Assembly: GCF_027942865.1 (NCBI RefSeq)
Contig: NC_134524.1
Coordinates: forward strand, 3,212,536 to 3,276,535
Reading direction: 5' to 3'
DNA: 64,000 nucleotides
DNA from: Odontesthes bonariensis
Taxonomy: Eukaryota > Chordata > Actinopteri > Atheriniformes > Atherinopsidae
The notes below the pieces were generated by a model. That model ran no database searches and was not told the DNA's origin. It saw nothing but the letters and a program-made list of their open reading frames with translations. Of this stretch, positions 44,562-50,500 are shown one piece after another. The position numbers and the translations under genes were made by a program. Position 1 is the stretch's first letter. Every line of letters begins with the position of its first letter.

Positions 44562-47500
44562 CTGAAACAGGAAGAAGAGTTAGATGCAGCGTAGACCGGA
44601 CGAGCGTCTTCATCGATCACGTTATCAGGATGTGAATAATCTGGCGTGCACGCAGGGTTTAATTACCAGGTTCATCATCATGTCCACGGGACTGACTTTG
44701 ATGGGGTTGATGCGGTGAACAAACTTGTTGATTTGTTCAAAGGAGGGTCGGTGGGCGGGGTTATGCGAGCGACATCGCCGAATCAGCTGCCGAAAAACGG
44801 AGGGATCAATATGGTCATATCTCTCCGGCTGATGGATCGTGTTTCCACTTGTTCCCTGAAAAGAATCTGGTGATAAAAATGAAAATATGCTCTTCGTACT
44901 CACGTCTACGTAGTCAGCAGGACACGGACAGGTGCTGTCGGCTTTACTGGAGATCAGTTCAGGCAGAGGAGGACACCAGGCACACTCCAGGTTAGACTCT
45001 TCTGCCTCCGGGACAAAGCTTGTTTTACTTATTTGTCTTTCAGTAAAACAGGTTTTCATTAAAGCTCTTTTCTGAGGTCTGTTTGAGATGTTTGAAAGTT
45101 TTCCCACCTCAGATTTAAACCTAATATATGCTCTTTAGAACAGAAGAATGAGTGAACACTTTAATGAGTGAAGTTTGCTACAGAGGAGGATCCCGGCAGA
45201 CTTACTGGGACTGGGTCGCTGCGAGTGGCGACCTCCAGCAGGATGATAGAATAACTGGGAAGACACAATCACAGGTGACCAGCTGAAGCTTCACGATCAC
45301 TCGAACGGCCAAACAAACATGTTCAGATACGTTTTCCAGGGAAACGAAGTTAAATTAGGTTTATCGTAGTACCTGAACACATCTCCAGCCAGCGTCGGCT
45401 CCATGTTGGAGTTCTGAAACTCGGGCGGCATGTACACCTCCAGGAGCCTCTGCTGATAGGTGGACAGAGGCTCCGTCCCATCGTCCCTGCGGTATGACCT
45501 CAGGCCATAATCTGGCAGCAAAGACCACATCTCAGTCAAAAACTGTTTACGCTCCTGCCTCAGATTTAACACTCATTGTGTTGTTTTCAGTTATTCAGTT
45601 ATTTCTGTTATTGGGCACATCACCCGTTATTGTTCACATCACCTGTTATTGTGCACATCACCTGTTATTGTTCACATCACCTGTTATTGTTCACATCACC
45701 TGTTATTGTTCACATCACCTGTTATTGTGCACATCACCTGTTATTGTCCACATCACCTGTTATTGTTCACATCACCTGTTATTGTCCACATCACCTGTTA
45801 TTGGGCACATCACCTGTTATTGTTCACATCACCTGTTATTGTTCACATCACCCGTTATTGTTCACATCACCCGTTATTGTTCACATCACCTGTTATTGTT
45901 CACATCACCTGTTATTGTTCACATCACCCGTTATTGTTCACATCACCCGTTATTGTTCACATCACCTGTTATTGTTCACATCACCCGTTATTGTTCACAT
46001 CACCCGTTATTGTTCACATCACCTGCACATGTTCACATCACCCGTTATTGTTCACATCACTTGTTATTGTTCACATCACCTGTTAGTGTTCACATTCACA
46101 TCACCCGTTATTGTACACATCACCTGTTATTGTTCACATCACCTGTTATTGTTCACATCACCTGTTATTGTGCATATCACCTGTTATTGTTCACATCACC
46201 CGTTATTGTACACATCACCCGTTATTGTTCACATCACCTGTTATTGTGCATATCACCTGTTATTGTTCACATCACCCGTTATTGTTCACATCAACTGTTA
46301 TTGTTCACATCACCTGTTATTGTGCATATCACCTGTTATTGTTCACATCACCCGTTATTGTACACATCACCCGTTATTGTTCACATCACCTGTTATTGTG
46401 CATATCACCTGTTATTGTTCACATCACCCGTTATTGTTCACATCAACTGTTATTGTTCACATCACCTGTTATTGTGCATATCACCTGTTATTGTTCACAT
46501 CACCTGTTATTGTTCACATCACATGTTATTGTTCACATCACATGTTATTGTTCACATCACCCGTTATTGTTCACATCACCCGTTATTGTTCACATCACCC
46601 GTTATTGTTCACATCACCCGTTATTGTTCACATCACATGTTATTGTTCACATCACCCGTTATTGTTCACATCACCTGTTATTGTTCACATCACCTGTTAT
46701 TGTTCACATCACCCGTTATTGTTCACATCACCCGTTATTGTTCACATCACATGTTATTGTTCACATCACCCGTTATTGTTCACATCACCCGTTATTGTTC
46801 ACATCACATGTTATTGTTCACATCACCCTTTATTGTTCACATCACCCGTTATTGTTCACATCACCTGTTATTGTTCACATCACCTGTTATTGTTCACATC
46901 ACCCGTTATTGTTCACATCACCTGTTATTGTTCACATCACCCGTTATTGTTCACATCACCTGTTATTGTTCACATCACCTGTTATTGTTCACATCACCCG
47001 TTATTGTTCACATCACATGTTATTGTTCACATCACATGTTATTGTTCACATCACCCGTTATTGTTCACATCACCCGTTATTGTTCACATCACCCGTTATT
47101 GTTCACATCACCCGTTATTGTTCACATCACATGTTATTGTTCACATCACCTGTTATTGTTCACATCACCTGCTATTGTTCACATCACCTGTTATTGTTCA
47201 CATCACCTGTTATTGTTCACATCACCTGTTATTGTTCACATCACCTGTTATTGTTCACATCACCCGTTATTGTTCACATCACCTGTTATTGTTCACATCA
47301 CCTGTTATTGTTCACATCACCCGTTATTGTTCACATCACCCGTTATTGTACACATCACCTGTTATTGTTCACATCACCTGTTATTGTGCATATCACCTGT
47401 TATTGTTCACATCACCCGTTATTGTTCACATCAACTGTTATTGTTCACATCACCTGTTATTGTGCATATCACCTGTTATTGTGCATATCACCTGTTATTG

Positions 47501-50500
47501 TTCACATCACCTGTTATTGTTCACATCACCCGTTATTGTTCACATCACATGTTATTGTTCACATCACATGTTATTGTTCACATCACCCGTTATTCTTCAA
47601 ATCACCTGTTATTGTTCACATCACCTGTTATTGTTCACATCACCCATTATTGTTCACATCACCTGTTATTATTCACATCACCCATTATTGTTCACATCAC
47701 CCGTTATTGTTTACATCACCTGTTATTATTCACATCACCCGTTATTGTTTACATCACCTGTTATTGTTCACATCACATGTTATTGTTTACATCACCTGTT
47801 ATTATTCACATCACCCGTTATTCTTCACATCACCTGTTATTGTTCACATCACCCATTATTGTTCATATCACCCGTTATTGTTCACATCACCTGTTATTGT
47901 TCACATCACCTGTTATTGTTCACATCACTTGTTATTATTCACATCACCTGTTATTGTTCACATCACATGTTATTGTTCACATCACATGTTATTGTTCACA
48001 TCACCCGTTATTGTTCACATCACCCGTTATTGTTCACATCACATGTTATTGTTCACATCACCCGTTATTGTTCACATCACCTGTTATTGTTCACATCACA
48101 TGTTATTGTTCACATCACATGTTATTGTTCACATCACCTGTTATTGTTCACATCACATGTTATTGTTCACATCACATGTTATTGTTCACATCACCCGTTA
48201 TTGTTCACATCACCCGTTATTGTTCACATCACATGTTATTGTTCACATCACCCGTTATTGTTCACATCACATGTTATTGTTCACATCACCTGTTATTGTT
48301 CACATCACATGTTATTGTTCACATCACATGTTATTGTTCACATCACCCGTTATTGTTCACATCACCCGTTATTGTTCACATCACATGTTATTGTTCACAT
48401 CACCCGTTATTGTTCACATCACCTGTTATTGTTCACATCACCTGTTATTGTTCACATCACCCGTTATTGTTCACATCACCCGTTATTGTTCACATCACAT
48501 GTTATTGTTCACATCACCCGTTATTGTTCACATCACCCGTTATTGTTCACATCACCCGTTATTGTTCACATCACCTGTTATTGTTCACATCACCCGTTAT
48601 TGTTTACATCACCTGTTATTGTTCACATCACCTGCACATGTTCACATCACCTGTTATTGTTCACATCACCCGTTATTGTTCACATCACCCGTTATTGTTC
48701 ACATCACCTGTTATTGTTCACATCACCTGTTATTGTTCACATCACCTGTTATTGTTCACATCACATGTTATTGTTCACATCACATGTTATTGTTCACATC
48801 ACCTGTTATTGTTTACATCACCTGTTATTGTTCTCATCACCCGTTATTGTTTACATCACCTGTTATTGTTCTCATCACCTGTTATTGTTCCCATCACCTG
48901 TTATTGTTCACATCACCCGTTATTGTTCACATCACCTGTTATTGTTCACATCACCTGTTATTGTTTACATCACCTGTTATTGTTCACATCACCCGTTATT
49001 GTTTACATCACCTGTTATTGTTCACATCACCTGTTATTGTTTACATCACCTGTTATTGTTCACATCACCCGTTATTGTTTACATCACCTGTTATTGTTCT
49101 CATCACCTGTTATTGTTCCCATCACCTGTTATTGTTCACATCACCTGTTATTGTTCACATCACCCGTTATTGTTTACATCACCTGTTATTGTTCACATCA
49201 CCCGTTATTGTTTACATCACCTGTTATTGTTTACATCACCTGTTATTGTTCACATCACCCGTTATTGTTTACATCACCTGTTATTGTTCTCATCACCTGT
49301 TATTGTTCCCATCACCTGTTATTGTTCACATCACCCGTTATTGTTCAAATAACCCGTTATTGTTTACATCACCTGTTATTGTTCTCATCACCTGTTATTG
49401 TTCACATCACCTGTTATTGTTCACATCACCCGTTATTGTTCAAATAACCCGTTATTGTTTACATCACCTGTTATTGTTCTCATCACCTGTTATTGTTCAC
49501 ATCACCTGTTATTGTTCACATCACCTGTTATTGTTCACATCACCTGTTATTGTTCACATCACCTGTTATTGTTCACATCACCCGTTATTGTTCACATCAC
49601 CTGTTATTGTTCACATCACCTGTTATTGTTCACATCACCTGTTATTGTTCACATCACCTGTTATTGTTCACATCACCTGCACATGTTCACATCACCTGTT
49701 ATTGTGCACATCACCCGTTATTGTTCTCATCACCTGTTATTGTTCACATCACCTGTTATTGTTCACATCACCTGTTATTGTTCACATCACATGTTATTGT
49801 TCACATCACCTGTTATTGTTCACATCACCTGTTATTGTTAACATCACTTGTTATTGTTCACATCACCTGTTATTGTTCACATCACCTGTTATTGTTCACA
49901 TCACCTGTTATTGTTCACATCACCTGTTATTTTGCAGACCCAGCGGTCGTCTAAAACACAGTTCAGAGACTTGAGTCGGCCATGACAGATCCTGTGCTGG
50001 TGCAGGTACGACATCCCTCTGGCGATGTCTGTGGCAAACGAAAACCTGGCAGACAGGCGCAGCGTTTACTTTATGATGAGTCCAAACCATCATTACTGTG
50101 ACGAATACTCCTTCTAATTAATCGAACACTTCTAACACTCCTTCTAATTAATCGAACACTTCTAACACTCCTTCATCTAATCAATCGAACACTTCTAACA
50201 CTTATTCTTCTAATCAATCCAACACTCCTAACACTCCTTCTTCTAATCAATCCAACACTCCTAACACTCCTTCGTCTAATCAATCGAACACTTCTAACAC
50301 TTCTTCTTCTAATCAATCCAACACTCCTAACACTCCTTCTTCTAATTAATCGAACACTTCTAACACTCCTTCGTCTAATCAATCGAACACTTCTAACACT
50401 TATTCTTCTTCTAATCAATCCAACACTCCTAACACTCCTTCGTCTAATCAATCGAACACTTCTAACACTTCTTCTTCTAATCAATCCAACACTCCTAACA

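Follow-up and report, generated by a model that had tools for sequence, protein, structure and literature searches.

The cyclase gene and its exon-intron junction

The window analysed here is a stretch of 64,000 nucleotides from Odontesthes bonariensis (contig NC_134524.1, positions 3,212,536 to 3,276,535 of the forward strand; positions below count from its first letter). Its minus strand encodes receptor guanylyl cyclase peptides, as indicated by protein matches, and one intron of this cyclase gene consists almost entirely of a 19-bp minisatellite that starts at the exon end. On a peptide joined by hand from the exons, Pfam identified Guanylate_cyc (1.5e-53) and PK_Tyr_Ser-Thr (9.2e-36), and these kinase-homology and cyclase catalytic domains lie within one open reading frame, as in receptor-type guanylyl cyclases. 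Among proteins of solved structure, NPR1 is the best relative of the exon pair, followed by GC-C. With exon boundaries placed by eye at AG/GT, a model of 16 exons, which starts at 52145 and closes with the stop codon at 42803-42801, stays open in a single frame for 647 codons plus stop, and ten of its 15 introns span 72-118 nt. Three more putative upstream exons fail to join the model in frame, and the upstream cyclase peptides have no Pfam family match at E 0.01. The exon at 52145-52000 encodes a cysteine-rich stretch followed by a hydrophobic stretch that resembles a membrane span. At the other end of the gene, an array of the GGGTCA/GGGTTA type (42219-42796) starts four bases past the stop codon.

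The junction of interest lies at the end of a 122-nt coding exon (49924..50045, minus strand), which matches the kinase-homology domain of NPR1 and GC-C and ends with the residues W V C K I T plus the G of the next codon. The exon closes with TGCAAAATAACAG at 49924 (AAA ATA ACA G) and the intron opens with GTGATGTGAAC at 49923. The preliminary description of this DNA had given the same reading on the gene strand, aaaataacag/gtgatg, and the junction falls at 49924/49923. The splice donor CAG/GTGATG occupies 49918..49926 on the minus strand, with 49923 as the first intron base. The next coding exon (139 nt, 45373..45511, minus strand) starts ATTATGG (D-Y-G). Joining it to the first donor copy restores KIT/DYG, that is, KITDYG as in NPR1, where GC-C has KITDFG. 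The placement of the donor at the first copy, which had also been proposed earlier, is well supported by the open frame and the conserved protein. On the same two lines of evidence, another donor within the array was rejected.

The intron between the two exons (45512..49923, minus strand) is 4412 nt long, and 4319 of these bases (97.9%) belong to the array. The remaining 93 nt form a non-repeat tail with the acceptor (45512..45604, minus strand), which starts with AAATAACTGAATAACTG, short repeats that are near-copies of the end of the 122-nt exon. This array-free remainder falls within the 72-118 nt range of the ten short introns. The preceding intron measures 542 nt with its own array and 100 nt without it.

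Composition of the array and consequences of using its copies

Tandem Repeats Finder (TRF) places the array at 45605-49931, with a period of 19, 227.4 copies and 92% matches, in close agreement with the 228 copies at 45605..49933 reported at the outset. The TRF span takes in the last eight bases of the exon, 49924 to 49931. A wraparound alignment divides the intronic part (45605..49923, minus strand) into 227 units with the gene-strand unit GTGATGTGAACAATAACAG. At the unit start, the nine bases from -3 to +6 read CAGGTGATG in 109 of the 227 units (the true donor being the first), CGGGTGATG in 68, CATGTGATG in 27 and another sequence in 23. A plain pattern count gives 109 CAG/GTGATG, hence 108 exact decoys beside the true donor, and 69 CGG/GTGATG, which bears out the early impression of hundreds of donor-like sites. 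Seventy sites, including the true donor, are identical from -8 to +11, and U1, U5 and U6 should be unable to tell these seventy apart by their contacts with the site. Among the first 30 unit starts 24 are of the CAG type, a number equalled or exceeded in 6% of circular shifts. Blocks of as many as 11 units recur within the array and hint at turnover.

Donor strength was scored from position frequencies of donor sites, and pairing was computed with unmodified U1 letters. By this measure, the true donor scores above 12 of the 17 other modelled donors of the gene, and its computed U1 pairing of -9.2 ranks fourth of 18, in a list that includes the weak entries 55808, 55551 and 54676 from the upstream exons out of frame. 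An exon of 250 nt or less is possible from six of the 109 perfect CAG sites, the true donor among them.

Recursive splicing through the AG/GT of the units was considered and ruled out, as the units carry no good pyrimidine tract before AG/GT. The pyrimidine fraction is 0.31 for the consensus unit and at best 0.44 in the array (first 25 bases excluded), compared to 0.56-0.94 for 19 listed acceptors, including upstream ones of unverified exons. Since no AG of the array has a good tract, the units are unlikely to serve as acceptors or in recursive splicing. As RNA, six consensus units fold with -17.0 kcal/mol, against -13.6 (SD 3.1) for 100 simple base shuffles, which is unremarkable. No exact 34-base copy of the array was found in collections of prokaryote genomes and viral contigs, which cannot show related animals and may omit records of the window's own genome; this absence is expected for an animal intron.

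Use of a later copy as donor would extend the exon by whole units, and 225 of the 226 possible extensions meet a stop codon. With two or more extra units, a TGA follows 20 nt past the exon (as read in seven cases, with the same stretch in the rest), while exactly one extra unit causes a frameshift, with no stop in the two following exons tested. Because every copy leads to an in-frame stop or a frameshift, no functional protein isoform is expected from them. The earlier statement that splicing must pick the first donor or use the donors variably thus holds as a matter of logic, with later copies yielding the stop or, for one unit, the frameshift.

Relation to known repeats at splice junctions

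By its anatomy, the array belongs to a known kind of structure, represented by the minisatellite of the human interferon-inducible gene 6-16 (IFI6/G1P3) and the mirages of amphioxus, and what is new is how large it is and that it fills nearly the whole intron. The 6-16 minisatellite reportedly sits at an exon-intron boundary and has a 12-base unit in about 26 copies. Its repeat units supply several donors, and the use of two downstream units gives three mRNA species (PMC4526556, citing Turri, Cuin and Porter 1995). The likeness lies in repeat units that can serve as donors, whereas the cyclase array has a 19-base unit and about 227 copies, and the addition of two or more of its units to the exon brings in an in-frame stop.

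Mirages are tandem repeats over exon-intron boundaries that differ in copy number, and they have been described in amphioxus genes for Adh3, globin, troponin C and PGBD5 (PMC3087553, PMC3902484). Many of their units carry AG/GT signals, unit lengths in Adh3 range from 10 to 72 bp, and regular splicing is reported to proceed without disturbance (PMC3087553, PMC3902484). Here too, the repeat runs into the exon, whose tail has the best match to the unit among 143 CAG/GT sites (13 of 19), and the units carry the AG/GT signals counted above. The mirages for which the cited passages give unit numbers have few units, namely six and three in the two haplotypes of BflGb6 and three of 108 bp in PGBD5 (PMC3087553, PMC3902484), whereas the present repeat makes up nearly the whole of a 4.4-kb intron.

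Among fish, the growth hormone gene of Sparus aurata contains polymorphic tandem repeats in its introns (PMC3045353). It shares the intronic position of the repeats, and the relevant passage of that paper does not mention overlap with a splice site. According to a survey of tandem repeats in humans, novel introns may arise from those located at exon-intron boundaries (PMC2812944). In the open-licence literature, as far as its passages reach, no fish case of such an array was found, and some may be in print elsewhere.

Origin of the array and choice of donor

The explanation that we consider probable is that of a mirage-type minisatellite that grew at the junction, with the first donor used by exon definition and the other copies acting as decoys. 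Evidence on the origin comes from the last 19 exon bases (49924..49942, minus strand). When aligned to the unit in splice register they match at 13 of 19 positions, and the last eight, AATAACAG, are identical without a break. The 142 other CAG/GT sites of the window, on both strands, match the unit at no more than 11 of 19 positions. In a set of 2120 coding 19-mers, the exon tail alone reaches 13 in splice register (the last exon was left out of this set and the three unverified upstream exons were included). Five of the matching exon bases, AATAA, lie beyond the splice consensus. Upstream of -8, exon and unit differ at six of 11 positions. The encoded KITD is common to NPR1, GC-C and a further protein kinase, 3hgk, which makes it likely that the exon sequence is older than the repeat and served as its source. 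Because exon tail and unit match in register, above all other sites, the array likely grew out of the exon-intron junction, as the preliminary description had suggested. The match is strong evidence, short of proof, and the growth itself is what we infer from it.

A formerly short intron, corresponding to the 93 nt outside the array, may have been expanded by slippage or unequal exchange at the junction. The seed would have been the short repeat AATAACAG at the exon end together with its near-copies downstream, and the donor would have been carried along. The near-copies of the exon end in the intron tail would suit slippage between short repeats.

Perfect donors sit both near the exon and near the acceptor, and the contest is therefore one between the two ends of the array. 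The spliceosome would take the first copy because the exon is recognised across itself, which favours the donor nearest to the upstream acceptor (the exon has only 122 nt). As both flanking introns are now long, exon recognition should favour the first donor. The remaining copies would be mostly silent decoys, and their occasional use, leading to the in-frame TGA or the frameshift, would do no more than reduce the output of productive mRNA. A comparison of near-equal human donors agrees with this preference, as long introns prefer the donor that is nearest across the exon, i.e. upstream, and short introns the downstream one, with a limit of approximately 250 nt for the switch (PMC9225289). In the same work, minigenes with two identical strong donors and introns of 365 nt used the upstream donor exclusively (PMC9225289).

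Growth of the array may itself have changed how the exon is recognised. Without arrays, the flanking introns of 100 and 93 nt would favour intron definition, in which, among equal donors, the copy nearest to the acceptor would be expected to prevail and disrupt the frame; at 542 and 4412 nt with arrays, exon definition would apply and the first copy would win. Both flanking introns exceed 250 nt solely through their arrays. A short array would then be harmful and a long one harmless, and the resulting fitness valley would favour large arrays. We regard this idea as doubtful; if true, the valley would explain the persistence of such a structure.

Alternative explanations

Several points weigh against the favoured explanation, both in its account of the origin and in its account of donor choice. 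With the unit free to align in any of its 19 phases, the next exon's tail agrees with it at 12 of 19 positions, next to 13 for the tail of the 122-nt exon and no more than 11 for the remaining 16 donors. Such a match would suit an unrelated array that spread until selection on the exon stopped it, with the similarity of the exon tail arising from chance and splice consensus. Arrays are also dense in the window, where 17 of them cover 32.7% of the sequence and another than the present one starts just past the stop codon, so that arrays beside coding sequence are not rare. This origin is nonetheless very unlikely in our judgement, as the AATAA matches go beyond the splice consensus, the match of 13 is unique among the coding 19-mers and falls exactly at the junction, and the 33-bp array of the preceding intron has no such match (8-10 of 19, where the random 95% level is 11). 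A further point is that the junction isoleucine uses the rare codon ATA (4 of 29 isoleucine codons, counted in exons from 51126 onwards), and silent exon positions may therefore have been overwritten later. In its full form, this would mean that the array overwrote silent positions at the exon end by conversion rather than deriving from the exon, and under this codon usage the chance of encoding K-I-T as AAA ATA ACA is indeed only about 0.016. Overwriting leaves the source of a donor-bearing unit unexplained, however, and does not fit the differences between exon and unit upstream of -8; we consider it distinctly unlikely. Finally, the model has three introns that are longer than 250 nt and contain no large array, so an ancestral longer intron is possible and a short one likely, not certain.

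As to donor choice, the rule of exon definition was derived from human data. Unless those data are filtered for equal strength, the downstream donor is favoured in all four classes, and weakening both donors of a minigene led mostly to exon skipping in the two larger constructs (PMC9225289). The present donor is weaker than the CAG/guaagu of those minigenes (PMC9225289). Introns of less than 250 nt would result from seven of the perfect CAG sites and from one CGG site near the acceptor (112 nt for the CGG site), and neither end of the array shows a sign of donor purging near exon or acceptor. Donors might be used variably, as in human 6-16, with a mixture of mostly non-productive transcripts and an array length that tunes cyclase output. 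The local site offers no distinction, since 108 decoys are the same as the true donor at -3 to +6 and 69 of them also at -8 to +11, and in IFI6 two downstream repeat units do act as donors (PMC4526556). Variable use remains unlikely in our view: the TGA past the exon and the frameshift of the one-unit copy leave no functional isoform to be expected, and two identical strong minigene donors resulted in upstream use only (PMC9225289).

The locus represents a natural test of splice-site selection. The choice among identical 5' splice sites has so far been tested with two-site minigenes (PMC9225289). In the cyclase gene, one true site and its 69 copies identical from -8 to +11 are spread across 4.3 kb, which sets near-exon against near-acceptor positions. 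Alleles of different array length would directly test the proximity rules of exon and intron definition, and also the inflation of a short intron by approximately 40-fold or more without loss of the gene.

Other features of the window

The second array, with a 33-bp unit and 13.4 copies by TRF, is located inside the preceding intron (50111..50552, given for the plus strand). It was considered as another array born at a junction and rejected, as its match to exon and intron ends is not beyond the random level. The 17 tandem arrays of the window were picked and merged from 69 TRF rows and amount to 20,923 of the 64,000 bases. A direct tandem duplication with a shift of 2456 bases extends from about 17750 to 22650, with 99.9% identity over the 1830 bases compared, and each of its copies contains a 27-bp array of 20 units. 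An open frame of 821 codons with a RING finger lies on the minus strand at 32456-34921. At 58369-61440, a frame of 1023 codons contains endonuclease and reverse transcriptase domains, which identify it as a putative non-LTR (long terminal repeat) retroelement.
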